From assembly GCF_026151205.1 (NCBI RefSeq), contig NC_087076.1, positions 14,431,675 to 14,495,674 on the forward strand: a stretch of 64,000 nt of DNA, written 5' to 3'. Every line of letters begins with the position of its first letter. Position 1 is the stretch's first letter. The position numbers were made by a program, and so were the translations under genes. Of the stretch, positions 3,835 to 61,300 are shown one piece after another. The notes under the pieces are model-generated. The model did not search any database, was not told the DNA's origin, and saw only the letters and a program-made list of their open reading frames with translations. The DNA is from Bolinopsis microptera (lineage: Eukaryota; Ctenophora; Tentaculata; Lobata; Bolinopsidae).

Positions 3835-8933
<5,099 letters not shown>

Positions 8934-11219: not shown

Positions 11220-11649
11220 AAAAAGATCCTTTCCAGCTTTGTCCATCATTAATGGACTTAATAAAACAAATATTTTAATAAAACAAATATTTATTTTTAC
11301 GGCACAATCAAACAATATCAATAATAAATAAATCAGGGGAGGTTTGAAGAGGTTTCAAGTGCCGAAGGCCACTGCTTATCTTTAGGATTTGAGAGTGACC
11401 TGTGCTTGAAACCCCCTCAACCATCCACTACGTCAATATACTAATTACAGTATACAAATATAGAAAAATATAATAATCTTAAATTACTTATTGGTTTAGT
11501 TTGGTGACAAAGGAGAGCCCAGTTGAGTTTTAGTTTAGCTTTAGGTTTTGAATCACAGTTTAAAAGGTTAGCCATGTTTCATGGCAGAGAGAGATATCAT
11601 GTGTGCATAGCCGTACCGGATGTAGAGTTTGAGATATAATATAGATTAG

Positions 11650-14600
11650 TTACCATGTATTAGGGTCATCTCGATTTTGGAGGGATAGCAAGTGCTTTTT
11701 AAGGTTAGATTTAATAACACCTGACGAAGCTGATAAGTCTGAATTCTTGGAAGAACCCGGGATTATCAACCCATCTACATTAGCATCACATATTTCGAAT
11801 ACATAGGGGCTGAGGTCATTCCAAATTTTCGTAGAGGTGTACAAAAAGTTCTGTTGGGAGATATCTAACCTCAGTAATGGGACAATCAGACGAAGTTTTT
11901 CATTTCTAGGACAGAACTTGAAAAGATCTTTAATCGACTGGGGGACATCAAATTTAAGAATTTTGAATAATTCCATTAATGTATGGTACATGTGCAGATT
12001 CTCCAGGTTCATAATTTTCTGCTCGGTGAATAGCGGCTTAGTGTGTTCAAGACAGTAGTTCTTGCTAGCCATATGTTCGTTATAAGTTCTTGAAAGTGCA
12101 CAGGTTAAATAGTATTCTTTATGATCAAAATTGGGAATGTTACCAAATAGCAGTCTTATACATCGTTTTTGAATTGCAAAGATTTTATTCAGCTTATGTT
12201 TAGGGATCCCACCCCAGCAACTTATACAATAGCTAAGATGTGACATAAAAAGAGCATTGTATAGTTTCAAATATTCAGATTTGGGAATGAATTTGCAAAT
12301 TCTCTTAATCGATACAATACTGGAGTTCAGCTTTAAAGATAAATGATTAAGATGTGGTTCCCAGCTTAGCTGTTCGTCTATTATCACCCCAAGAAACTTT
12401 GTACATTGAACTTTTTCTAGCTTTTTGCCATCTATTAAAATCGTTAGATTCCTGTTAAAGGGCCGTGTTCTGGCACAGGTCTGTGTTGCTCTTGACAAAC
12501 CTGGCTGAAAATGCATATAACAACTTTTCCCTGCATTTATATGTAACTTGTTAGACTCCATATAGTTACTGACTTGTTTCATTACATGATTAGCTTTTTC
12601 AAAAGCTTCCTGTGCTGAACTACCTATCACAAAAATATTTGTATCATCAGCAAACAGGACGAATTCAGCCAAGCTTGAGGAGCTCACAATATCATTTATA
12701 TAAATCAGAAATAGTAGAGGTCCTAACACTGACCCCTGGGGTACACCATACTCAACTGAACACTTGTCCGACTTTTCAGTTTGAAAAGAAGTTACTTGGC
12801 TACGGTTTGTTAGATAGCTAGCAAGAGTTTTTAGTGCAATACCTCTTACTCCATAGTGTTCAAGTTTATGCAGGAGTTTATCGTGCTCAATTGTGTCAAA
12901 TGCTTTACTTAGATCAATAAATATTCCAATTACATGATTTTTCTGTTCAATCTCATTAAGTATTTTATTGACAGAATAGTTTACGGCATGAGATGTTGAG
13001 TGTTGTTTTCTAAAACCAAATTGTCGATCATAAATCACGTTCATAGCACTGAGGTAATTATATAACCTATTATAGATTATTTTTTCAAGTATTTTTCCAA
13101 ATATCGGTAATGTAGAAACAGGTCGATAGTTATCAAGGCATCGTGAGTCTCCTTTTTTATAAATTGGTGTAATAGAGCCCGTTTTAAGCTTGTTTGGAAA
13201 GACCCCATTGTCCAAGAACCAATTAAAGAATCTAGAGATATGACCAGACAGATAATTTACACTCTTTTTTAAGACTTTAACAGAGATATCACTTGCCTTC
13301 CCATTTTCAAGGCTACCAATGATTTTACTTATCTCTTCCTCGTCACAGGGGCTGAGAAAAAAAGAGTTCACTATTCTTTCTCTGCCCTTGAGGTATTGTT
13401 TAAACTTCGTCTTAATAAAATTGCCATCAGTTACCGTACGAGATGGTACAGAAGATTGAACTTTTGAATTAAGATTACGAGCAATAGACGAGAAGTAGAT
13501 GTTAAATCCGTTAGCAATCTCACGGCGTTCAGTTACAATTCGACCATCAATTAAGAATGATGCTTTTATATCTTTTTTAGATTTACCCCTGAGTTCGTTA
13601 ATCAATTCCCAGGTTTTTTTTAATATTTCCTTTAGCAAGTTCAAATTTTTTTCCATAGTGGGCTTTTTTCGCAGATTTTATAGCTTTGTTTAGGATAGAA
13701 CGATACTCCTTATACTTAAGATATAAAGTTTCCTCACCTAATGGGTTGATTTTGGTACACGAAGCCTTCCATCGCTTGTAGTGAAAGCCTTTAGTAAACA
13801 CAGATTTAATTAACGCAGAAGTGATCCATGGATTCATCAATCTATTGCGTTTTGATTGAAAACCAGCAGTAGAGTCCAATTTGAAATTCAGTTCGATTTT
13901 TTTCATGGACAGTTTCGACAAATTTTTCAAAACCTTCCTCATCATACGAAAAGTTCGATCGGTAGATATCCCTTCCAATATCATTAAGGAAGCTTTCTAT
14001 ATTAGACTCACAGTAATCATACTTAGGTTTAAGTTTGGTATCATTTGGACTCTCTTTAGTATTACACGATATGAAACAGAAGATTGGGTTATGATGGGAA
14101 ATCTTGGATTCAAGAATTCCAGATCCTAAGACACGCTCAGTAGAGTTCACTAAAATATTATCAATTAAGCTTTCGTTGCAACCCGGCTTGGCATGGGTGG
14201 CAATCGATATCAAAGGGATTAAATTATTACTGTAGATAGTTTGTTCAAATTCAGCTATGTTTCGTCCCTGGGCCAAAAGATCAACATTGAAGTCACCTGT
14301 CAAGGCTACATTATTAGACGGTAGGAATTTCATCAACACGTCAAGCTCAGCAAGTGCATCTAGAATATCACCACTAGGGGGCCTGTAGACAACACCAGCA
14401 ATCTGTGGAACCTCTGTGTTAGTGATCTCAACGAAAAGTGTTTCAAGATTGTCAGAGCATTTACATAACTTTTCGATTCGGCTGTATTGGTACTTATTGT
14501 CAATATATACACCAAGGCCACTACCTTTCTTTTTCCCATCAGTTTTGGAGTTATACTCACTGCTGTAACCATCAATTTTGTATAAATCTTTATTTTCCTC

Positions 14601-15083
14601 ATCAATGTTTGTTTCAGCTAGCGCAATAACTGCAAATTTCTCATCATATTGACTCATATCAGTAATAAAGCTGTCAAAGTTAGATGCGTTCCCATCAATG
14701 TTGTTAAACACAATAGATATAAACGGCTTGTTATGGTTAAGTATGTTTTTTGACAGCCGGTTGAAATTTGTCATGTTATAAGACCTACAGTCTTTTAGAA
14801 TGTTTGAAATAGTCTCCATATCTTCGTCTCTTTCTACAGTGTTGGGATCATATTTGTCATAAATAATTGAGTTGAAAGGATTGTACCTTTGGGATTTGAA
14901 GGCGAAACATTGACTGCAGTGCCACATTTGTTTAACATGGTCAAATTTAAAGCTCTGTTCAGAACATTTGGCATGATATATTGTATCGCAACACTCACAT
15001 ATTATGACTTTATGATGGCTTAGTACATTGCTATCACAACCTGGACATCTCTCTCTTGTAATATTAAAGTTTATTGAGGTCAT
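11650..15083 (-). pseudogene. LINE ORF2: PHD, endonuclease, reverse transcriptase
   Basis: The ORF starts at 15083. A PHD-type zinc finger (CPGC...CECC..IYHAKC...WHCSQC) occupies the first 60 residues. It is followed by an exonuclease-endonuclease-phosphatase domain with ALAETNID, LTGDFNVD, SLIDNIL and SHHNP motifs. The reverse transcriptase (13656-11650) has GVPQGSVLGPLLF and an intact FADD catalytic box. Two frame changes interrupt it. One is at an A7 run near 13900, between 15083-13842 and the middle frame 13984-13598. The other is at an A8 run near 13615, into 13656-11650. Both sit in homopolymers, so they may be assembly errors or simple decay. Apart from these the element looks young, with no internal stop in the domains. 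Confidence 0.85.
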
Positions 15084-16825
15084 ATCGGTAAGATATCACC
15101 CCTACTACCCCTACTTAGGGCACTCCTATAGTCACCATTTCCACCTTTAAATCTTTCCGTGGACTGACTTCCACCACGTTGTACAATACATCGTTTTATA
15201 CTCATGCAAAATATTTTCAGGCCTTCTCTTCCGAGATGTACAACATCATTGACCAATGGTGTGCCATCACGTGAGAATCGACCATACTTAGAAGGCATGC
15301 ATCCGTTAACAGAACCTAGTACAGAGTTATCTATAATAAACATGTTTTTCCTATTATAAACCATGTCGACAATTAAACTGTTTAGCTCCCCTATACGTGA
15401 GTTAACAAACTGTGATTTAGTGGGCAAGAGTAGACTAATATGAACTTTACTATTAGGATAAAATTGCTGAATTTCACTACATTTCTTCTTAAGCTTAGCA
15501 ATAAGTGTTCTAGTAGATGGTCTGTTGGAATCATCCCGAATATCATTGATTCCCGTGTGTATAACAATGTTCCGATAAGGGCCTATGTCTTTCGGAGCAG
15601 GAATATCGTCAATTTTAGCAGCCCACATTCGCTTACCAGGAACCCATTTTCCGAGAGTTCCAACATCTTTACCAAATTTAATGTATTTAGTGTTTGAGTC
15701 CCCAATTAAAACTGTGCTATTTTTGTAGTAAGGCGCAATATGCCTAAAGGTAAAGCTGTACCTCACAGAATTTTTCTCATCAGATTCTTCTTCATCTTCT
15801 TCATTAGTGAGAGGTTCAATACCATGATTCCAGATTTCCTGGGACAACCTGGACATCACGTACACACTTCCATCTTTGAGCTTTAAGGACTTTTCAGTCG
15901 ACTTATGAGTGAACTTTATTGTGCGTTCTTCACCAAGAGACACAGTGACTATTATTGATTCAGGGTCAATAAGTACCTCATTGTCACAGTGCTGAGGGAT
16001 ATGGCTACTGTTGCCTGTATATCTTGTTACAAGGCAAGAGTTCAGCCAGCTCTTCCTATTGGGGAGAGAGGGGCGCACACAGTCCAAAAGATCTTGTATC
16101 TCTACTGGAGTTTCCTTTGCCTGATGATATGCTCCTGTATACCAGTATCCATGTTCACCAAAGTAGATGACATCCCTGCTGCCACCAACCGAAGAAAAAT
16201 CTGCACTACTGTCCTCCAGCAGCTTTATAAGTTTGCTGTGAAGCTCAACAGGCACTATATCTTCCTGATAAGTTATATAAGGGTCACATGCAGGGTCTAT
16301 AGAAATTTGAGATGGAGCAAAGTGAGGGGAAGTAGTGTTAGGGGTCATAACGATAGAGTCGTTGTTGGGTAGTTCACCTTCATCAAATTTCTGTGTGGAC
16401 GTTGAGGGACAAACATGATCATTGATCTTTTCCAATTGCACTTTGATCTGGGTCATCAGGTTATCAACATGATCGAAAGTACTGCTGTTGGTCGGGGGTT
16501 GCTCTGTAATAGGAATACTTTTGAGAGAGTCCTTCAGGTCATCAATCTCCTGTTTGAGAGAATAACTGGTTGTCTCAAGAGCTGAGCCACTCTCCTTTAC
16601 TTTCGTAAGTACATCCTTGATAACAGCTATGTCTTCAGTGATGTCTTCAATTCCAGTTACTAATCGTTCTGTTTTTTTGGAGTGATCTTTGTAACTGTCC
16701 TCCTTGAGTATGAGGTGTTTGATATGCTCGTTGAAGAACTCTATGGTTGTTGTACTATCTCTGAGGTCCTCATTACATTTGGATATCTTAGCAATGTTGC
16801 TAAAGAATTCTGTTAAGGCTTTGGA
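15080..16825 (-). CDS. LINE ORF1: coiled coil + AlkB dioxygenase + SGNH hydrolase
   Basis: Open for 581 codons. The first ATG is at 16456, but the frame is open to 16825 with coiled-coil-like sequence, so the true start was lost by truncation. Counting from the ATG, residues about 55-240 form an AlkB-type 2-oxoglutarate/Fe(II) dioxygenase. It has the metal triad H156-x-D158 (PQHCDNE) and H211 (IWNHGI), and the oxoglutarate-binding R232-x5-R238 (RYSFTFR). Residues about 248-430 look like an SGNH/GDSL hydrolase: GDSN (252-255), GIND (302-305) and a late D-x-x-H (DVVHLG). The stop codon overlaps the ORF2 start in ATGA (15083-15080), implying coupled translation. Esterase domains are known in CR1-type ORF1 proteins. 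The AlkB module is the unusual part, and its role here is inferred, not shown. Confidence 0.85.
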   Translation of the reverse strand, partial: SKALTEFFSNIAKISKCNEDLRDSTTTIEFFNEHIKHLILKEDSYKDHSKKTERLVTGIEDITEDIAVIKDVLTKVKESGSALETTSYSLKQEIDDLKDSLKSIPITEQPPTNSSTFDHVDNLMTQIKVQLEKINDHVCPSTSTQKFDEGELPNNDSIVMTPNTTSPHFAPSQISIDPACDPYITYQEDIVPVELHSKLIKLLEDSSADFSSVGGSRDVIYFGEHGYWYTGAYHQAKETPVEIQDLLDCVRPSLPNRKSWLNSCLVTRYTGNSSHIPQHCDNEVLIDPESIIVTVSLGEERTIKFTHKSTEKSLKLKDGSVYVMSRLSQEIWNHGIEPLTNEEDEEESDEKNSVRYSFTFRHIAPYYKNSTVLIGDSNTKYIKFGKDVGTLGKWVPGKRMWAAKIDDIPAPKDIGPYRNIVIHTGINDIRDDSNRPSTRTLIAKLKKKCSEIQQFYPNSKVHISLLLPTKSQFVNSRIGELNSLIVDMVYNRKNMFIIDNSVLGSVNGCMPSKYGRFSRDGTPLVNDVVHLGREGLKIFCMSIKRCIVQRGGSQSTERFKGGNGDYRSALSRGSRGDILPI

Positions 16826-16915: not shown

Positions 16916-17015
16916 TCAATTCCAGCTTTACTAGCGGGACAAAGACAAAAGATGATAATGCGCGCCTTAAAGGTTAAAGTTACGACGTCATCCATGTCCA
17001 TGGTTAACGCATAAC

Positions 17016-17108
17016 TTAACGGGTGATACTCGTAAAATATCTGTTCCATATATTGGACCGTCGACGAGTCCAACTCGGCGCGCGTCCTGGTAGGTTGTAA
17101 ACCTACAA
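17016..17108 (-). mobile_element. MITE family B, copy 2
   Basis: A 93-bp copy from TTAACGGGTGATACTCG to AAACCTACAA, with the perfect 8-bp duplication cgcataac at 17008-17015 and 17109-17116. A partial additional fragment (GAGTGATATTTGTAAAAAC) follows directly. Confidence 0.8.
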
Positions 17109-17452
17109 CGCATAACGAGTGATATTTGTAAAAACAAAATATCTGTTCGGAGACGTCTTGGAATTAAGGCCAGAGGGGGGATGGAACTTTTATAGTTTTC
17201 ACATATTTGATAATAACTGCTGAAGACGAACAAGAAGAAAAAAACCGGATCAAAATCTGACCTTGCGCTACTGGGATATCGCGCGCTAAATTTTGAAGTT
17301 TACCTGTAATTACATGTTAAACTGGATCTTTAAACGGCTGTAACTTTTTTGACCATTCGATTCCTTAGTTGAGAAAACCGTCCACTCCCTGATCTTGAGG
17401 TTTGGTACAGTGGTTCCTTGGACATTTATCCTCATTTATTATGCAGCACATT

Positions 17453-17556
17453 TTTTTTATTTGACTCGGTTATTGAATTAAGAGGTTAACCATGTCAAAA
17501 ATTCGGAAAATTTAGCTGGTTAACCTCATAATTCGAGAAACGAGTCAAATAAAAAA
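17453..17556. repeat. Inverted repeat, 40-bp arms
   Basis: Arms 17453-17492 and 17517-17556 are complementary at 36 of 40 positions around a 24-bp loop. Each arm ends in GAGGTTAACCA at the loop side. It could be a small foldback element or the first unit of the GGTTAACC array that follows. Confidence 0.75.
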
Positions 17557-18474
17557 GCCACAAAATTGTGTTTTGAGATAGATGCAATTTAGTGTTTTCA
17601 AAATTTTGAATATTCACTTGAATGTATCACAGTTCGTTAGTTAGGACTTTTTATACACCTAATAACGTTTGCTTTAACGGGTGATACTCGTAAAATATCT
17701 GTTCCATATATTGGACATTTGGACCGTCGACGAGTCCAACTCGGCGCGCGTCCTGGTAGGTTGTAAACCTACAACGTTTGCTTGATCAGACCTGGCCATC
17801 CCCTAAATGATTTTAGCCACTTTCAGTAGTATACCATATAACACTGAGTAGAGATTGGTTTATCAATATGTTTTTATATATGTAGTAAAACATTTACACA
17901 GTGTAACGATTAGGTTTTGGAGGTTAACATGTAATCGACTGGTCAGATATTCAAAAAATAAGAGGTTAACCTCATTTTTTAGCCATTTACGGGTAAAATC
18001 TTCTACTAAAATATGGTCAGTTCAAATCACCTTTTTCACATGATTATAGTTGTAGCATGTAGGCATTGTGATACCAATAGATACCTCACTGCGATATTGT
18101 GGTACATTACATAAGTAAGAATCGTATGTATATTCCCTACGGTGCAAAAATGCGATGGTTAACCTCATTTTTTTCATTTTCCCAAGATAAAAGAAAGTCG
18201 ATCAACACGTCATCTATTTTGAAATGTGTATACCGTAAACTTACAATGAAAATAATAACTCTATCATTTGATTTATTCTCGCTATATCTAAAAAAAGAGG
18301 TTAACCTCATTTAATCACTTTTGGATATTACTTTTTCTGATAATTATGAACCTAAAATTTAGAGTTTACATTTGCTGACCGAAATAACAAAAAGTTATGG
18401 AGTGTAATAAAATATTAACCTCAATTTTATTACCCTCAATGTTGTATAGTCAATTTTGTGAAAATCGGTTAACC
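17484..18474. repeat. GGTTAACC(TCA) array
   Basis: Perfect GGTTAACC palindromes at 17484, 17518, 17964, 18157, 18299 and 18467, plus near-matches at 17922 and 18414. Most are followed by TCATTTTTT- or TCAATT-type sequence. Later spacings are about 140-190 bp, suggesting a decayed tandem array interrupted by MITE B copy 3. Confidence 0.6.
17674..17774 (-). mobile_element. MITE family B, copy 3
   Basis: A 101-bp copy with target-site duplication cgtttgct (17666-17673 and 17775-17782). It has a 9-bp internal insertion relative to copy 2. Confidence 0.8.
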
Positions 18475-18609
18475 TCAATTATAAAAGAAAGTTAAGCAGC
18501 TACATATATGTGAATAGCGGCAATGTTTTTGTCATCAAAAATTAAATTGATTTAGAAAATAATATTTTGGTCGAATTTTTTGACCCCTTACCCCCCCCCC
18601 CCTCTGGCC

Positions 18610-18699
18610 TTAACGGGTGATACTCGTAAAATATATTAGGACCGTCGACGAGTCCAACTGCCAACTCGGCGCGCGTCCTGGTAGGTTGTAAACCTACAA
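18610..18699 (-). mobile_element. MITE family B, copy 4
   Basis: Same ends and core as copies 2 and 3, with an internal deletion and a short duplicated CCAACT. No clear flanking duplication. A C12 homopolymer lies just before it. Confidence 0.7.
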
Positions 18700-19832
18700 T
18701 CTTGGAACAATATTTTATTTTTACAAGTATCACCGAACCATTGACCATGGACTTGATACATGTCTAACTCGGGCGCGTTTTTGTACGTAATTAACGGTAA
18801 CCTACTAGTCCATTGTTCGCTTCTCTCAGCGAGATCAGAAGTAATACAATGGTGAAACGAGCGTGAACAGTAATTAGTGTCAATATCAAGTGTAACTGTA
18901 AGATCACTCCCAGATCACTTTTCATTCGAACTTTGTTACAAGATCCCAAAGCTAGTTCATAAATGAAACCAACTGGAATAGACGTATTTTTGAACGCTGG
19001 AGTTAGGGGTCAGGTAGTTCACATATTACGTTATCACTTTTTGGCCCCCTAATAATGAGTAATCATTTTTACACATAGCTGTTTTCAAATTACACTAGCG
19101 TTATCTTTTGAAACCCCATCTACTCGGCTGATAACGTAATGTATTGTATATGTGAACGACCCCTTAATATAACAATAACAGTCACAAGTCAATGCACTTT
19201 CATCTGGATCCAGAACAAGAATGCAGAAGCACGTTTTCGATACCGTATTTTGAACAATTTGCACTATGCATGGAGTTTATATAGTTAGACGTTGACGTAC
19301 AATTAGAAAGAAAACTTTACTCTTGAGGTTATTCCAGCATATCGAATTGTTGTATAAATGATTACAAGGACATGATAACTATTACAAAAGATAGTGTAAT
19401 TAACTTACTTTTTACAAATAAACAAATTTACTAAATCAGTAACTCAAATCTGGAAAATTCTTGCGTGAGTTTTATGAACGGTGCTAAACAAGTTTTGAAC
19501 TTTTTTAATCAGAAACAAAGTAATGATATGAGCTGAGATAAAACATTATTTTATATTTTATTACCACCATTTCCCCTTCGGATCCACGAACTGTAACTGT
19601 ATCTATAACAGAAAAGGCGAAATATCTATCAATAATTTAAACCACGAACAAGTTAAAATGGTCACTGATTTAGCCTCAACTCACCAACATTGTGGACAGT
19701 GGAGTACGGTCACATTAAATGACATTTTCATACTCCTCATATTCTGATATAAACTGCCTCGCTCAAACAAAATCACTATGTTTGTTAAAACTAGATAGCA
19801 GATAGCAACTTTAGCCTAGAAAGAACAGTCAT
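18700..19832. other. Intergenic, no gene seen
   Basis: Downstream flank of the SLP-2 gene. No exon or RNA gene recognised. Confidence 0.5.
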
Positions 19833-22772: not shown

Positions 22773-23320
22773 TCATTTACTTTTTCCGTTCCGCTTTGAT
22801 CTCTTATCGTTGTCAGGTCCGTTAGAGGGAACGAACACGTTGTAAGGGGAGTCAGGTTTTCTGATAACAAGTTTTACTCCTCCCCTAACTATGCAGTTAT
22901 CACAGGCCCACTCAGCGTCTACCTGCAACCATTGGAAAGTTAGGTTTATTCTTGCTAGTGAAGGTTAGGTGGAACTAATATCGACTGTACATATTGTTAT
23001 CATCTATCTGACTTATGGTTTCCAAAATCCCGGTGAACGTGGCAGTAAGAAATCAATCATTTTCAAAGACACTGAAATGCTAGATTAGCGCTGAATTTTG
23101 GTGTATCTAAAAGTAAGTATAGACAAGATTTTACCGGTCAGTTTTACTAAATCACAATAATGACCTCGGTTGTAAGGAGTTTGTAAGCATCAGTAGTCAT
23201 GCCAGTACAAGTTCTGTGGTACCACAAGTCGCACCCACTCTCGCAGAAAATACCATCGTCATTGTCTCCTACCTCTTCATCGCAAATACCACACGGATAG
23301 TCTGAGCTGGACTTTCGGTT
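22773..23320 (-). CDS. PYGO: Pygopus-like PHD finger, last two exons
   Basis: Two phase-0 exons on the minus strand, 23320-23165 and 22922-22773. They join as ...LLTTE|VDAEWACDNC.... Together they make a complete C4HC3 PHD finger (PCGIC..EV.DNDDGIFCESGCDLWYHRTCTGM, then EWACDNC), followed by a basic 30-residue tail and TGA. In known Pygopus proteins this finger reads histone H3 K4 methylation and binds BCL9/Legless in Wnt/beta-catenin transcription. The spacing and the ESGC..W(F/Y)HR.CTG...YxLL(T) wording are typical of that family. The intron donor (GTCATT) is weak. Upstream exons with the N-terminal homology domain were not found in the window up to eS17, so the gene is incomplete here. Confidence 0.75.
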
Positions 23321-23599
23321 CTGAAGTGGAATTTGTTGTAAAATTAATGTAAATAACGTAGTGGTAAACTCCATGCATAATTCGCACAGGTAACGATAAA
23401 GAAATTTGACCCAAAGAACAAGAGGACCGGACCGGTGAATCTCTTTGCCTTCCTGTACCAACGATATATCATTTCGTGAGAATTTCAATAATCCAGCAAT
23501 TTTGGACATGGTCTTCTTGCAGGCTATATTTGTAATTTTTGTGACAATTATTGTATTGATGTAGATTGAAAGCGAATTTGAGAATCTCAAGAGAAGCGA

Positions 23600-24487
23600 G
23601 CTCGCTTATCAAATTCGCTTCTCTCGCGAGCTAGGAAGGATTTTTCGCGCGCTCGCAGAAACGCGCGCAAAATTTTGGCCTAAATGATATTTGGAAACGC
23701 TTGATGTACGAGAATGGACAAAATTTGCTAGTACTTTGAGTTCGACCGACAGTATGACGCGAATTGTAACAGTGTACACCTGTACGGATTAGAAATATAC
23801 AAATAAAAATGCTGAACCCTGCTCTCGGGACATGGTTTGTGGTGTTTTATAGCATACAACTTCTAAGAAATACAGTAGTTCCTTTTGTCATACTGGCTAG
23901 TGCCATACATGTCGGAAAATCACATCAAATCGATCCGTATTCATACTGAAAGTTGTCTTACTAAGTTTTGGAGAACTACTAAGTTTCGTTTGGTAGCTCT
24001 AATGCAGCTAAATCCGGACTTAAAAGCAGTGTAAGACGTGATTGGAGCAGAGTAAATATAGATTTAATTCGTAGCAATGGAGGGACCAAGGAGTAAGGTT
24101 TGTACACATGTTCTGTAGCATCAATATAGGTGAGAGCTACGCTGTAGGTACAGAATTGGAAAAGTTAACGAAGGCTGTGAATTGTTCACAGTTCTGATAA
24201 TGACGAAATTAGGAAGAATTTGTAAAACTAGTGATGATGTTTATGTCGTTATTCTTAATCTAATCTTCACAATTCTGTCCATTCTTTTTCTAATGTTGGA
24301 ATTTCCTACAGGATAAGCAGTTGAATTACGGCGAATACGAGTGAAGGATTATTTACTTAGAAATGGGCAACAACTAGGGTAGAGTTCGCATTTAAACTGT
24401 ATACCTGACTTCCACGATATCTGTTTGATTCGTGGATCACACAATGCAAGGGACAGGAACCCTTGCTATGAAGTGGTCGAGTATTAC
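23600..24487. other. Non-coding, upstream of Pygopus-like exons
   Basis: May be an intron of the Pygopus-like gene. A CG-rich imperfect palindrome (gagaagcgagctcgc / gcgaattt-type) lies at about 23590-23635. No exon recognised. Confidence 0.4.
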
Positions 24488-37738: not shown

Positions 37739-38159
37739 TCTGATGGCATACTATTAATTCAATAAGTTGGTGAAATGAAGAGGACTAACAGTTTTTTTAA
37801 TTCAATTTTTTATTGTTATCATGGAAATAAGTTGACAAATTTGACCAAATAAAAAATTCATACTATCAATCTTTTATCTAGAATTTTAATTTTTCATTGA
37901 CATTATGTTAAATTTCAATAATTCACCATTTAATCGAACGATTTTGATTTTTCTTTCAATTAAAAAGGACGAACTTTCAATTCGTTTAAATTTCAAGATC
38001 AGTCGATTTGACCATACGAGGTTGAATATTATGGAATAATATTAGATAAACTTCAGATTGATATTCACAGTGCGCTCTCGAAAGTTTATTTAGTGCTATG
38101 TACTCAATACCGAATTTATAATTCAAATTAAGATGATAACAACCCTCACCTCAAATAGG
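37739..38159. other. Intergenic, IFT172 promoter region
   Basis: AT-rich, about 420 bp between the two plus-strand genes. An in-frame ATG at 38133 precedes the homologous start at 38160. No clear promoter motif. Confidence 0.5.
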
Positions 38160-41100
38160 ATGCAGCTAAGATACCTCAAATCCCTGGTCAGTCCTCAGGA
38201 CGGCCAGGCCAAGGTGACCGCCTTTGCCTGGTCTCCAAACAACGCTAAACTAGCAGTCGTAACCGTCGACAAAGTAGTCCTCATGTTTGACGACCACGGA
38301 GAAAAACGAGACAAATTCTCCACCAAAGCTTCAGATCCCAACAACATCAAGAAACAATACCAAGTCAAGGCACTGGCTTTCTCACCAGACTCCACTCGAA
38401 TAGCAGTCGGGCAAACAGACGACATTGTCTTTGTCTACAAGATAGGGGAGGAATGGGGAGAAAGGAAGACGATCTGCAACAAGTTTATCCAGGAGTCAGC
38501 TGTGACCGCCATGGTCTGGCCTCCTGATCAACCTGCCTTTATTATTGGTCTAGCTAGCGGCAAGATCAGGCTGTGTAACGTCAGGACCAACAAATCTCAG
38601 CCACTTTATGGAACTGACAGCTGTGTGGTGGCACTTGCTGCTAAGTTAGTGGTTTTACTTACTTTTATATTTGGTTGGGAAGTTTAATGAATAGAGTTTA
38701 TAAATCCTACCAGTTCGATTGCAATTATTAATCTATTTTAACATTTTATTGTCTCAAGAGATTAACGATTACCTACACTTCAGTCCATCGAACAAGGCAA
38801 TAATCAGTGGTCACGCAGACGGTGCGATACTGAGATATTTCTTTGATAACGAGGGTACAGGTCTGAGCCACGGGCAGATTGTGAAGCACTCCTGTGCTCC
38901 GTATGCTTTAGCTTGGGGCAGTTCTATTGTGGCTGCTGGATGTGATAAGCGGATCATCATGTACTCTGCTGATGGTAGGCTATGATGTTATCAACTAGCT
39001 TATATCAAGCAGATATCATGATGCTGTTTAAAGTTATTTTCACTGGATTTTATCACTTACTTCCCAATTTCTGTTACATATTTGGTTGTCGAGCTTGTCT
39101 ATAATAAACATTCCACTAGGAGTACTTGCTACTCAATACCAACACTTTATCCCTCCCCAGGAAAAATAACCCAACAGTTCGACTACTCAAAAGATCTAGA
39201 AGAGAAAGAATTCACAGTGGCAGCTAACAGTCCCAGCGGTCACTCTCTGGTTTTAGGAAGCTTTAACAGACTCCGAGTTTTTAACTGGGCTCCAAGGAAG
39301 ATGGTTTGGGAGGAAGGGACTCCTAAAAACATTCCCAACTTGTACACCATCACCGCTCTTAGCTGGAAAAAGGACGGCTCTCGACTTATTTGCGTGAGTT
39401 TCTTGCTGAAATAAATGATCAGTTATGTCCTTGAAACTGTCACTGATCGTCAGGTCAGAGAGATACGGTGTTTTTATATCAGATGTTTCGAGGATTTCAG
39501 AAAGAAACAATTTGTAATTTGTAATTTGTAATTTTGCAGGGTTCACTGTGTGGTGCGGTTGATTTGTTCGACTGTTGTCTACGCAGAACAATCTACAAGA
39601 ACAAGTTTGAGATGACCTACGTGGGGCTATCCCAAGTTATTGTGAAGAATTTGCAGACTGGTACGAGGGTGGTGGTTAAATCTCATTATTCTTATGAGAT
39701 ACAAAAGGTACAGAGGTTCATAAACGTTTAGATATCAGCTTTCTTTAAAATGTTTTGTAACTCAAAATCCATTCAGATCATAACTGAAACCGTGTTGTTT
39801 AGAATTGCCGAAATCTTAATCATTTGTTGCAGGTAAATATAATGGGTAACGACAAGTACATTGTAGCGTACACATCTGATACTCTTCTCCTTGGAGACCT
39901 CAAAACATTCCGCATAAGCGAGGTAAGACAAATGTTGAATTGCTTTTCAAGAAACAGAACTCTTGTTGTTGTTGTCCGAAGCCACTTTAATTTAATCCAC
40001 CACTTAAACTGTTTTCACAATCCCTACATATAAAACATTTCCTTGTGTTTCAGATTGCCTGGTCAGCGACAGGAGGCAACGAGAAGTTCGTGTTTGATCA
40101 CAATAACGTCTGTATGATCTTCAACGCCGGTGAACTTACTCTGGTACGAACACTTTAATTTTACAACTTTAGTTATGGGGGAAAAGTGATAATCATGCCT
40201 TATAACTTTATAAGAATAAAAATACCCAATATGGCCTTATGGCATGATTATCAATTGATCCAAGCAACCCTTACGATCTAAGCAACCCGTACGACTATTA
40301 TTTACGAGCGACCTTTCTCATTTCATCTTAGTCATAAACGATCATAATATGTGATCATGTGATAACAAGCAAGCGACCGTAACTTTAACGTGTTCTTATG
40401 CTTGTTGAAATGTGTAATGATGAGCTACGTGCGTCTTGAGAAATGACAAAGTTGAAAATTAGCTTTTAAATAGAAAATGCTGTAATTTCGCTACCATGTT
40501 ATAATGGTAACACGACTCCTGTCCGACAGCGACATCTGTCCGACAGCGACATCTGTCCGAATCAGGGTACCAGAAAAAAACGACATCTGTCCGAAATTGT
40601 GACCTAATTTCAATACGACACATTTCCAATTAGAGACATGATCTAAACTGTTACTTGCTAAATTGTATACGTAACATGTCCAATTTGAGATATGATCTGA
40701 GTTTACTACCACAGTTTATTTTCATTTGATGTCGATAAATTGGACAATATCACAGAATCAAATCTAAAGCATAGTCAAATTTCCGATAGCTTTAAGGAAA
40801 TCCATAGGTTGCTGTAGTTGTCGTAATCATCTACAATTCTCTGAAGTTGTCGATCATAACGGATCCATTCGGGTGCACGTGGCTCAGGTAGTTCCCGCCC
40901 GTCTCTTTTGGTTTTCTTCACGTCTGTAAGGGCTTGTTCTGCTTTAAGGCAATCAAGGAACTTCCAAATTGTGGGCTTCGAGCAGGAGAGCATTGAATGG
41001 AATCCGTGATGCCAACCTTCTGCGATATTGGATGAGCGAGGAATCCTCATCTGTGCAGCTTCGTGTTGATTCCACATGTGGGGAGCGAAGTTAGGATTGG

Positions 41101-44100
41101 TGGTTGATGTCCCGATCCAAGTGATTTCGTAGTATGAAGCAAACTCAGCCATGTCTATAGGAAGGAGGGGCTTCAGGTGTCTACAGATTCGAGGGACGTC
41201 AGTCTCGGGTACGTAGGCAATCGCTCCAGTCATCGCGAAAGAATCCCGAACAGGAGAGTTTGGAGTCAGGTACTCCTCCCAGATGTCCATACTGCTGTCC
41301 TATATGTACTCATGTCCTGTGATGTGATCGACAGCTTGTTAGGGTACGGCTAGCACGATCCTGTTCTCAACTAGTCAATCACGTATCGATGGATCACATC
41401 AGCTTTAGAACGTCACGAGATTACCCGTGAGCTTGTGAAATACGAATGTGAACCGAAATGACAATATGATCCGAAATTCGGACAGATGTCGCCAAAAACG
41501 ACTCCTGTCCGACAGCGACATCTGTCCGAAATCCCTAATTCAGCTGTCGGACAGATGTCGCTGTCGGACAGATGTCGCCCAATCTGTTATAATATATCAG
41601 CCTGGAAAACGACCAATTCTAAATAAATTCCTACTTCTCAATCCAGTTTCGCTTATACATTTAAATGAAAATAACTCTGAACAATTGACGTTAGGTGGAA
41701 TACGGAACCAACGATATCCTGGGCTCGGTAAGAACAGAGTTCATGTCACCTCATTTGGTGAGTGTGAGGATAAACGAGAGAAGGCTGAAGGGTGGAGAGG
41801 ATAACAAGAAGATAGCTTATCTGGTGGATCTCAAAACCATATCTATTGGTATGTTATCATATACAGGAACATGGTATTCGATAAATGAACATATTATTGT
41901 CCATGCGATGAATTCTGTTAGAGTTTAAGCTTATATCCCTTATACCTTATAAGCTTATAGTCTCTTCTCTAACAAACTCCTCTGCTTACAGTTGATCTGA
42001 TATTCGGGGTAACACTGGCTACCATTTCTCACGACACAAGAATTGACTGGATAGAATTGAACGAGACGAGCAGAAAGATGCTGTTTAGAGATAAGAAGTT
42101 GAGACTTCACTTGTTGGATGTTGAGACCCAGGCTAGGACTACTCTCCTCAACTACTGCTCTTACGTTCAGGTGGGATATTTATCGTATTTGAGGATTATT
42201 TTTAGATTAACGAGCAAGATATACCGTTTAATCAAAAGCTGGAGATGACTTGATAATCTACTGGTAAAATCTAACAATTTTGAGATAAAACATCCTCCAC
42301 TCGATACGTAATTGAAACAGAACAATACAATAATAATATAGCACAGGACTAACACAGAACTAACACAGAACTAACACAGAACAACATTTCAGTGGGTCCC
42401 AATGAGTGACGTTTGTGTAGCACAAAACAGATCCAACTTATGTGTCTGGTACAACATTGACTGTCCTGAGAGAGTTACCATGGTAACCATCAAGGGGGAC
42501 ATTGAGGAGATCGAGCGGACTGATGGCAAAACGGAGGTAAACCATACATTTATAGAGAATAATTGTTGTTGGTATGCTCTTCAGTAAAAACTGATGATAA
42601 GATAAATTGACCTACAATTCTTGGCTGCATTTAGCATTTTATATTCATTGCTTTCAATTCATCAGGAAATATTGTATTAATTGATGTCTAATTATCTAAT
42701 TGATACCAGGTAGTTGTTAACGAAGGAGTAACTACAATTAGCTACACCCTCGACGAGGGACTCATCGAGTTTGGGACTGCTATTGATGATAAAGACTACA
42801 GTAGGTGAGTGAACTCTGAATGATTATCTGTTATTCCTTATAATCACAGTTTGTGTTATGTGTCACAGTTTATTTTATTCTTGTACATTAGACAAGTAGA
42901 GAATAAGAGAAAACTAAAAAAGTAGAGAAATCTTTTCAAAAAAGTGTATCTAATAACAATATCCACCCCAGAGCTGTGTTGTACCTGGAAACCCTTGAAT
43001 TGACCCCGGAAACGGAGGCCATGTGGAAAACCCTGTCCCAACTGAGTCTAGAATCAGAACAACTGCACATCGCGGAGCGGTGCTACGCAGCGCTGGGCAA
43101 CGTCAGCAGAGTGCGCTACATTAGGAGCTTAAGAACAATGTCTGAGACGAACGAGGGGCAGTTCAGAGTGAAAGCCAAGTTAGCAGTGCTGGACAAGCAG
43201 TTCAAGGTAGCTGAGGCGCTGTACCTGGAGCAGGGGTATGTGGACGATGCGATGGAGATGTACCAGGAACTGCACAAGTGGGATGATGCACTGCGCATTG
43301 CGGAGAGTAAGAACCATCCTGAGGTTGAGTTGTTGAGAAGGAACTACTTCCAGTGGCTGACTGATACTCAGCAGGAAGAGCAGGCAGGACAGGTTTGTTA
43401 GTTTTAAGATATTTTAGTAATAACATATTAGGACACATCCTTTTTCTTTTTTAGAACAAAAAGGACTTCGCAACCATATTGGTCTTCACTTTTCCTACTA
43501 ATTTCTGCTTTCTCTATTATTATTAGCCTCTGATGAACAGCGAACACACTAACAATTCAAACCTAATCTCAGTTGTTAGAGAAAGAAGGTGACTTCATGG
43601 GTGCCCTACAAATGTACATTAAAGCTGGACTTCCTGCAAAAGCAGCCAGGATCGCAATAGCACATCCTGATATCTCTTCCCAAACTGAAATTATTGAAAG
43701 GATAGCATCTCAACTCGTCAAAGGAGGACTTTATGAACGGGTATTGGATTATAGTGCTGCTACTTCTTTTAAGACATTATTGAATTGTGTTTTCATAAAG
43801 AGTGAAGACTGCTTCTTAAAAATAATTTTTTATTCAGGTTCAATATTATTTAGGGTTTACCTTCACATATTCTGACATCAGTGTTCTTTTAGGCAGGTGA
43901 CTTGTTCGAGAAAATAGACCAGAATCAACGAGCTCTAGAATCATTCCGTCAAGGCAAAGCATTCAGACGAGCTGTAGAATTGGCAAGATTTGTATTCCCG
44001 AAAGAGGTTATAGCACTTGAAGAGGAATGGGGCGATCATTTAGCGAGTCAGCAGCAAATGGACGCTGCAATCAGTCACTACATTGAATCTGGGTAAGATG

Positions 44101-58307: not shown

Positions 58308-61300
58308 CTAACTGACCTTTAGAACTGGTACAGGAATATGTGCGTCAGATGACTCGTGGTACTTGAGGATATCGTTCAGAAGGGCCATTACTTCCTCCTT
58401 GTCCAGGTATCCGGTCGAGTCCGTGTCGTAGTGAGCAAATATCCTGTCAAAGTCTTTTCTTGTCAGGTACTGTCTGCTCTGTAGGTGTAAAGTTATAATT
58501 TATTATTCTGTGAAATATAATAAAATATTGCATGTCTGAAAGCTGAAAATCTTTTTTATCTATAGCCTTGAAATGATGGCTGGGTTTGCCCATAGGAGTT
58601 GAAACACCTTTAAATTCTTTGCCCCACGCTGCCTGCCACGCAAACGTAAACTGGCCATTTCTTCCCACGTGGAAAAAATTAGGACGTGGGACAATAAACC
58701 ATTAAGCCTAACAGTAACTCACACAAAAAGCCTTCATAAAGTTATCCTCCACACTCATGAGATGGGACAGCTCCTCAAGCTCGAGTCTACCGTCCTTGTT
58801 AACATCAAACTCACTCATTAGGCTATTCAGCGCCTTGTTCAGATCCTCGCCCGATACGTCTTCTCCTACTAGCTAATGGGGGGTACCAGAGTTAATAGTC
58901 AGCTAATGGGGGGTACCAGAGTTAATAGTCAGCTAATGGGGGGTACCAGAGTTAATAGTCAGCTAATTGGGGGTACCAGAGTTAATAGTCAGCTAATGGG
59001 GGGTACCAGAGTTAATAGTCAGCTAATGGGGGGTACCAGAGTTAATAGTCAGCTAATGGGGGTACCAGAGTTAATAGTCAGCTAATGGGGGGTACCAGAG
59101 TTAATAGTCAGCTAATGGGGGGTACCAGAGTTAATAGTCAGCTAATGGTGGGTACCAGAGTTAATAGTCAGCTAATTGGGGGTACCAGAGTTAATAGTCA
59201 GCTAATGGGGGGTACCAGAGTTAATAGTCAGCTAATGGGGGGTACCAGAGTTAATAGTCAGCTAATGGGGGGTACCAGAGTTGATAGTCATGCTTAAGTC
59301 GCTACAATATCACAGACATAAAACTATCTAAAAGGGTTACTGTTTTGCGAGTTACGGTAACTGAGCAGCTTATTTAATCAGTTTTGTGACATGTGATTTA
59401 CTCTTAAACAGAAAGTCACTCAGACTCCCTCAGACTCCCTCAGACTCATACCCCCACAAAATCTCAATCTGTAGACTGTAAGCCCTGTTTACCTGAGCAA
59501 AGTCGTGCACAAGAAACTGAAGCTCTTTGATCTCCAGGTATCCCGAGTGATCTGTGTCGTAGTTCCTCCACAACTTCAGGAAGTCTGAGAAAGATGATAT
59601 ATTATGACGCAGTGAAACTATCGGACTACGATGTATGGGGACTTGCCACCCCATGGAAAAATTAACACATATTGACTCTGTTACATCGTTTCCTCAAATT
59701 ATTTGTTATATAGTAGTGTTGAAAGTATATATTGAAAGGAATATACAATAACTGATATCAACTGAATCGGTGAAGGTAACAAGAAAGAATGTCGCAACTA
59801 TCCTATTTTACGATGCATGGCATTTTCAAGCATAACCAACAAACTTTACCTGCAGAAGGAATGCGGTGTCCAATCCTCACAAGGTAGTTGTTCTCCGCAG
59901 GTATAGAGCGGATTAGGATCTCCCTGTTGATCTTCGTGGGCAGTTTCTCTCCCACCGTCGCTTTTATGTTTCCAATCACCTCATTATTGAAACTGAAATA
60001 TTGGCAGATTTTGAGGTTAAGCGGAATTATAGCTGACGAACTGTATAACTATAGGCATACCGCATAGCTAAAAGAGTCTTTTCAGCTAAATTGGCCCTGT
60101 AAAAAGTTATTTCGCTCGCCCAAAAGTGATCACGTGACTTGGGTTTTTACGGTTTTGCAGTCAAACAAAACGGTTTCGCATAAAGCTTATCGCCAACCGG
60201 CCAACCCTAACCTTAAGTTATTTAACAATTTTGTTGGCAAGAACGTCTTCAGATTGCTGTTATACAACCATTTTCTATAATAATAATATGATTTCGGATT
60301 CAATACCTCATTCTACAACATGAATTATATATAATCGTGTTCCATGGTTATTGGTCAATGGTCATTGGTCAACTGCATAATCTAGTCCTCAAAATTTCTT
60401 CTAATTGCACTACTAGACTTATTATAGCTAAGTTTCGAGATTCTTGCGAGTTAACATAAGTTATATTCCAATAACCGATGAGGATCAAGGCACTTGTAGT
60501 TGCCCTGACTCTGTTCAAATCGACGAGACATATAGTCTAATTAATATCGATGGGAAATCATATTGCTGGGCATGCCCTATCGTTGACAGAATCAACCATT
60601 CTCCTCAGAAAACATATCAAGTTTGGCACAAAAAATGTACATTTAATATTTATACGATTGGATGCTGACAATATTCCCAGATCTTACCATTTGATGTCCT
60701 GTCTGTTAAGTTGCCACACGTACTCCTTCATAACCAGGTTCGTTAAGAACTCATCCAGGAGGACTGTCTCCAGGTAGTTGCTGGTCGGAGAACAGTTTCA
60801 GACAAGACTTATTAAAAAGTTTAAACCCTGTTTCGGGACGATGTTTTCAGGAATCACGAAATTGTTTCATCGAAATACCAGATATGCGATAAATGATAGG
60901 TAGTCAATCAGGATGGATATGGAAGTAATAGAATGTGAACATTACCCTACGGTCTACAATTGAGCTGAAAGAAGATAAACCGGGTTTAAAACTTCACGTG
61001 ACCCACTACTGACTACTAACTAGTCACTCTATTAGTCACTACTCACTTATTATAAACGTCATTGTTTTCAAGTTCGTTTCTCAAAGTTGCCGGTGAGATC
61101 CTGAACTTTCTCTCCATCACTTTCCGTTTCACCTTGGGTATCCTATGAGGATCTGAAATTTTGGAAATTGATGATTTTAATTTCCACTTTCACTTTCACT
61201 TTCACTGTAGCACCAAGAATACAAAAGTCCAACTCTACATGGCACGCCTATAAATTTCAGAGACTAATAGTCTCCCAGATGCTTTCATACCAGCACTTAT

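Follow-up and report, generated by a model that had tools for sequence, protein, structure and literature searches.

An AlkB-type dioxygenase domain in ORF1 of a CR1/L2-like LINE from Bolinopsis microptera and its relatives

The window analyzed here, a stretch of 64,000 nucleotides from the ctenophore Bolinopsis microptera, contains a LINE copy whose first open reading frame (ORF1) encodes an AlkB-type 2-oxoglutarate (2OG)-Fe(II) dioxygenase domain fused to an SGNH hydrolase, and the same domain recurs in ORF1 homologs. The best explanation, to which we give an even chance, is that this is a dead, 5'-truncated copy of a CR1/L2-like element and that the AlkB domain of the family's ORF1 protein (ORF1p) repairs element RNA or cDNA for the reverse transcriptase (RT). 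Profile matches and structural models show a predicted family ORF1 that comprises a PHD-like finger (cut off in the window copy and missing in some relatives), a coiled coil, AlkB, SGNH and a basic tail, and a predicted ORF2 with a PHD-like finger, an endonuclease and an RT.

Organization of the window copy

ORF1 lies on the reverse strand at 15080..16825, as given in the original prediction, and the frame is open over 581 codons from stop to stop; its stop-to-stop product is denoted P0001. This 5'-truncated frame encodes a helical, probably coiled-coil part (P0001 1-138, 16412..16825, reverse strand; helices 2-38, 42-102 and 115-138 in the model), the AlkB-type domain (176-363, 15737..16300, reverse strand), the SGNH/GDSL hydrolase domain (364-545, 15191..15736, reverse strand) and a basic tail. 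The catalytic residues were originally counted from an ATG at 16456, so that H156, D158, H211, R232 and R238 correspond to H279, D281, H334, R355 and R361 of P0001; the residues are indeed present, but this ATG is not the real start, given that homology reaches 16825. Relatives of 714, 826 and 817 amino acids all align from exactly 16825, which matches their residues 134, 175 and 160, respectively (tblastn), and a tblastn search with three longer relatives (E up to 1e-3) did not find the missing N-terminus elsewhere in the window. The window copy is dead, and it is 5'-truncated at this point. Upstream of the aligned region, a PHD-like zinc finger pattern is present at the N-terminus of 63 of the 70 relatives with at least 650 amino acids and in 3 of the 51 relatives with 500-649 amino acids, some of which may be fragments; several of these shorter proteins start with Met, are near 570 amino acids long and cluster in the tree. 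The PHD-like matches of the relatives are mostly under the Pfam cut-offs.

The AlkB assignment rests on concordant lines of evidence. P0001 matches PF13532 far above chance (5.4e-19, 69.6 bits, cut-off 31.2), the HxD...H metal triad and the R-x5-R pair of 2OG-binding arginines (H279, D281, H334, R355 and R361) are complete, and comparison of the predicted structure with known folds recovers AlkB, including the double-stranded beta-helix; both the proposed fold with its full set of residues and the expected outcome of structure prediction are thus borne out. The fusion to an SGNH hydrolase holds as well. The Pfam match of this part of P0001 is weak (14.3 bits, cut-off 32.9); its fold in the model is clear, and the Ser, Gly, Asn and Asp/His blocks are in place, with S377, G397, N427, D527 and H530 intact. 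NCBIfam searches with two ORF1s returned only low-scoring coiled-coil and similar matches, all below cut-off. Just before the AlkB domain, at 16322-16342 on the reverse strand (P0001 162-168), the linear motif PNTxSPH is strongly conserved within a variable linker, being exact in 93 of 159 relatives, and could serve for phosphorylation or docking.

The ORF1 stop (TGA) and the ORF2 start (ATG) overlap as ATGA at 15080..15083 (reverse strand); two ORF2 relatives align to position 15083 with their residues 1 and 2. This arrangement suggests coupled translation of the two frames, and ORF2 would probably be translated by stop-restart at the overlap. The downstream PHD/endonuclease/RT frame that had been proposed stands with regard to the RT but is not a single open frame, and the matches to PHD and to the endonuclease fall under the Pfam cut-offs. 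The first of the three frames, at 13842..15083, contains a PHD-like finger (0.029, 14.8 bits, cut-off 24) and an AP-type endonuclease (PF03372, 1e-4, 22.6 bits, cut-off 24.5); the middle stretch, at 13598..13984, is in a second frame, with breaks near 13.9 kb and 13.65 kb; and the last, at 11650..13677, encodes the RT (PF00078, RVT_1, 1e-38) and a C-terminal part, all on the reverse strand. The endonuclease, just under the cut-off here, is above it in the relative P0177, and in NCBIfam the ORF2 match to a group II RT was below cut-off. An AT-rich 17-mer in 2.1 copies at 11258..11292 (reverse strand) is the probable 3' end of the element, of which the exact position is approximate. With element ends that are likewise not exact, no word longer than 8 nt common to both flanks was found in a check for a target-site duplication.

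By its architecture alone, the element is classed as a putative CR1/L2-like LINE: ORF2 combines an AP endonuclease with an RT, the copy is 5'-truncated, and short tandem repeats are present at the (approximate) 3' end. The ORF1 conforms to the esterase (type IV) kind in having a coiled coil and an SGNH esterase, with AlkB as an extra. Just upstream of the LINE, at 17000-18700, there is a cluster of GGTTAACC-type palindromes together with a 58-nt direct repeat in three copies.

Retention of AlkB among relatives and its association with the RT

A search with P0001 identified 203 homologs (E up to 1e-3), and PF13532 was detected in 118 of the 120 listed. The AlkB domain is present in the nearest relative, P0002 (89% identity). 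One of the two exceptions, P0043, is a Mnemiopsis gene model with SGNH but no AlkB stretch, which may reflect splice prediction or a deletion; the other, P0106, has 332 amino acids and covers none of the catalytic positions. The only proteins named by taxon among the 120 are three from Mnemiopsis leidyi. Because a whole-protein search favours AlkB carriers, we also searched with the SGNH part alone of a distant member (P0085, residues 345-575), among proteins 0.55 to 1.75 times the length of the query protein that share short words with the query. All 120 listed of the 172 matches contained PF13532, and in this SGNH-selected list the five residues H, D, H, R and R were all kept in 108 of the 118 proteins that span them (the remaining two rows lack coverage there), E283 being kept in 107 of these 108. 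Across all 160 ORF1s, that of the window included, the five AlkB residues are conserved in 146 of the 156 covering proteins and the SGNH set in 153 of 156; the four proteins left out of the five-residue count, each missing one or more positions, are P0043, P0106, P0267 and P0279, the last with both arginines changed. The mean majority is 0.58 over AlkB and 0.62 over SGNH, and 0.35 over the coiled coil, which varies freely.

Capture of a host AlkB exon by a single copy, or a chance resemblance, was considered and rejected: with 203 homologs, PF13532 in nearly all of those listed, AlkB in every listed SGNH-selected relative and in P0002, and a match of the fold itself, we assign it a negligible probability. 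The domain thus recurs beyond this copy, in its listed relatives, and, as far as the tests that could have refuted it were run, the earlier reading is supported.

AlkB-SGNH ORF1s also appear to share contigs with ORF2s of this type, upstream of which they had been expected, with the linkage defined by contigs of exactly equal size in two protein lists rather than read from DNA. When the ORF1 listings were compared with the best 120 of 7967 ORF2 matches, 13 of 74 ORF1 contigs of at least 6 kb matched an ORF2 contig exactly in size, compared with a mean of 0.69 and a maximum of 5 matches at 200 shifted offsets; of the 11 matches obtained first, one (3969) was excluded as too small for both proteins. 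The size-matched contigs are mostly 6-7 kb. For the congruence test, 12 of 14 pairs, those with ORF1s over 500 amino acids, were used, and fragments of 335 and 317 amino acids were left out. Identities among the ORF1s, which diverge to 33% in linked pairs, correlate with those among the ORF2s (Mantel r 0.89, p 1e-4, the lowest value that 9999 permutations allow; 12 pairs), as do those of AlkB alone (r 0.79) and SGNH alone (r 0.86). Chance size matches are not expected to yield such a correlation; AlkB thus appears, as judged from these proteins, to have accompanied this RT through much of the history of the family. Searches of viral_contigs with a single protein and then with an alignment, and of genome_contigs with the alignment, gave 8, 30 and 77 pattern stretches, respectively, and no relative, as expected of viral and prokaryotic collections.

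Substrate class and possible role of the AlkB domain

Among the 60 chains listed of 211, the family profile matched ALKBH2 (5.5e-19), ALKBH3 (3.2e-14), ALKBH8 (2.3e-9) and AlkB (about 5e-6); ALKBH5, FTO and other AlkB classes were found neither among these 60 nor among the 50 listed entries of the fold comparison. The metal-site motif of the family is H-x-D-[D/N]-E, with E283 in every one of the 119 proteins of the first list that span it and in 150 of 157 overall. HxD[D/N]E is typical of AlkB, ALKBH2 and ALKBH3, the enzymes for N1-methyladenine (m1A) and N3-methylcytosine (m3C), and HxDDE is found in ALKBH2 in the profile alignment. By motif and profile ranking, the putative enzyme is of the AlkB/ALKBH2/ALKBH3 repair type. 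At the position of ALKBH2 N159, an Asn that contacts 2OG, both the window copy and the consensus have Thr, a difference that weighs against the repair reading preferred below. The basic RKK loop of ALKBH2, which serves the second DNA strand, is replaced in the profile by an acidic stretch, a difference that sets the domain apart from the dsDNA subtype and argues for single-stranded substrates.

This replacement weighs against the possibility, which we consider unlikely, that AlkB acts together with the PHD-like finger on integration-site DNA or cDNA, at damage or epigenetic marks, and not on RNA. The best sequence match, among the 60 of 211 chains listed, is to ALKBH2, a dsDNA repair enzyme, and the PHD-like finger of the longer ORF1s weakly matches BPTF (6e-4), as such a role would have it, but the ORF1s of about 570 amino acids that lack the PHD pattern still keep AlkB. 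Equally, the profile ranking (nearest ALKBH2/ALKBH3 among the same listed chains) and the HxD[D/N]E motif speak against an epitranscriptomic eraser that would remove m6A (or DNA 6mA) from the RNA or DNA of the element and so escape host control, a reading that seems to us possible but rather doubtful. An AlkB of an orchid Ty3/Gypsy element is reported to demethylate m6A in ssRNA in vitro (PMC9289625), which favours an eraser; human L1, however, is reported to be helped by the m6A writer METTL3 and suppressed by the eraser ALKBH5 (PMC7873242), so that removal of m6A would not necessarily benefit a LINE.

In the repair reading that we prefer, ORF1p would most likely assemble on the RNA of its own element through the coiled coil and the basic parts, RNA binding being assumed. 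The AlkB domain would then oxidatively strip methyl groups of the m1A/m3C type from element RNA or nascent single-stranded cDNA, so that the RT would be neither stopped nor made error-prone during target-primed reverse transcription, and the SGNH hydrolase may act alongside on lipids or esters, a role also put forward for ZfL2-1 ORF1p. The m1A and m3C lesions are located on the Watson-Crick face, and, in our view, clearing them for an RT that copies a long template would be the simplest use of the putative AlkB. Protection or demethylation of element RNA or cDNA, as first suggested, would be consistent both with the conserved catalytic residues and with a domain of the AlkB/ALKBH2/3 type. The broader proposition, that this is an old, widespread lineage of animal LINEs in which AlkB, carried within the RNP protein, clears RT-blocking methyls in cis from template RNA or first-strand cDNA, seems to us to fall slightly short of an even chance. 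In a study of the R2 retroelement RT, treatment with AlkB is reported to remove m1A and m3C, and the results are taken to mean that m1A impedes the RT (PMC12140624). The same source reports that R2 RT captured many full-length tRNAs without AlkB and that the effect of AlkB on intact tRNAs was modest, so that these lesions are not necessarily a block to a retroelement RT.

The catalytic set is changed in 10 of the 156 covering proteins, which implies that AlkB activity is not needed in every lineage. Six of the ten (P0248, P0249, P0250, P0253, P0255 and P0257) form one clade (support 0.94) with an intact SGNH set, and represent clusters of 1 to 43 members, several of them multi-member; of the other four, two pair with each other and two are scattered. 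We compared the AlkB identity of deviant pairs with that of functional pairs matched in SGNH identity; the pairs are not independent, so that the resulting counts are not probabilities. For deep pairs within the six-protein clade, AlkB identity is below that of every matched functional pair (for example, 0.39 versus a mean of 0.60, 0/214; 0.41 versus 0.56, 0/621; 0.62 versus 0.74, 0/50). Two recent pairs of this clade show no such deficit (8/23 and 14/28 functional pairs as low), and for P0261/P0277, the second deviant pair, the reduction is mild (5/58). When the catalytic columns were masked for four pairs, P0255-P0248 stayed low (0/214) and P0250-P0248 became marginal (1/49), and the effect disappeared for P0257-P0255 (14/28) and P0261-P0277 (18/57). 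Our reading of these identities is that loss of the chemistry in the six-protein clade may have relaxed constraint on the domain for a time, and that, outside this clade, the chemistry is probably what selection keeps in AlkB.

The domain was not deleted in the six-protein clade, so a scaffold role is possible there. As a general account, with AlkB serving mainly as a nucleic-acid-binding scaffold in place of the RRM or zinc knuckles of other ORF1s and catalysis being minor, this appears quite improbable. Retention of the domain with broken catalytic residues alongside an intact SGNH set agrees with it, and esterase-containing ORF1ps are reported to lack a structured RNA-binding domain (PMC3905857). 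It is countered by the conservation of the catalytic residues in 146 of 156 covering proteins and by the faster divergence of AlkB in the deep pairs that have lost them.

Comparison with known systems

Human ALKBH2 and ALKBH3 and E. coli AlkB have the fold, the metal triad and the arginine pair in common with the ORF1 domain, but are cellular repair enzymes without an SGNH domain, a coiled coil or an RT partner. The HxDDE motif is also found in ALKBH3 and E. coli AlkB. In the open-licence PMC literature, a scope that does not extend to most subscription papers and Repbase notes, we found no AlkB inside a LINE ORF1 among the papers listed. The nearest precedent is the orchid element Gypsy_Pa_2799, likewise a retrotransposon with its own AlkB-type (2-ODD) demethylase domain; it is, however, described as an LTR element of the Ty3/Gypsy type with an ALKBH5-like domain in a separate second ORF, recently acquired in Phalaenopsis (PMC9289625), whereas the domain described here resides inside ORF1 of a LINE, is fused to SGNH, resembles ALKBH2/3 and has been kept over deep divergence.

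The esterase ORF1s of CR1, L2, RTEX and Penelope, including ZfL2-1 ORF1p, share the coiled coil and the SGNH esterase, and PHD fingers are known from elements of the CR1 and L2 lineages (PMC3905857, PMC4120745). In contrast to the window element, Table 1 of a survey of 448 Jockey-superfamily elements has no AlkB among its tabulated ORF1 domains (PMC4120745). In that survey, esterase ORF1s were found only in two vertebrate subgroups, whereas here an esterase ORF1 with AlkB occurs in Mnemiopsis proteins; cnidarian and sponge elements with esterases are also named in PMC3905857. RNA viruses of the families Alphaflexiviridae, Betaflexiviridae and Closteroviridae contain AlkB domains (PMC9289625; PMC544882) and are similarly selfish RNA-based elements with AlkB within a larger protein, but there is no reverse transcription in these viruses, and the domain sits in replicases or polyproteins rather than in an ORF1 RNP protein. 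The P0001 model matches viral structures beyond those of plant viruses, among them 2OG-Fe(II) oxygenases of giant viruses and polyproteins of Picornavirales.

Of the two halves of a LINE, the ORF1 protein is the one least understood. If the proposed role is correct, the family would add a further kind of ORF1 to the five types in use, along with transposon-encoded template repair in retrotransposition, the element itself supplying the AlkB treatment that laboratory protocols apply ahead of reverse transcription. A conserved ORF1 AlkB would imply that retrotransposition is genuinely hindered when element RNA or cDNA is methylated or alkylated, and base demethylases would have been recruited more than once by selfish elements, namely, LINEs, the orchid Gypsy element and RNA viruses. 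A demethylase adapted to a retroelement may also be of use in RNA sequencing methods.

Elsewhere in the window, a short open frame on the reverse strand (23147-23605) contains a PHD finger (25.5 bits, cut-off 24) and may come from another LINE. WD40 and IFT-type TPR exons at 38094-43401 on the forward strand perhaps belong to one host intraflagellar-transport gene. There are also two tandem arrays, a perfect hexamer array (TGCTCC, 69 copies) at 3839-4254, within a 1123-codon frame with LDL-receptor A repeats, and a 30-bp minisatellite of 14 copies with 97% matches at 58871-59290.
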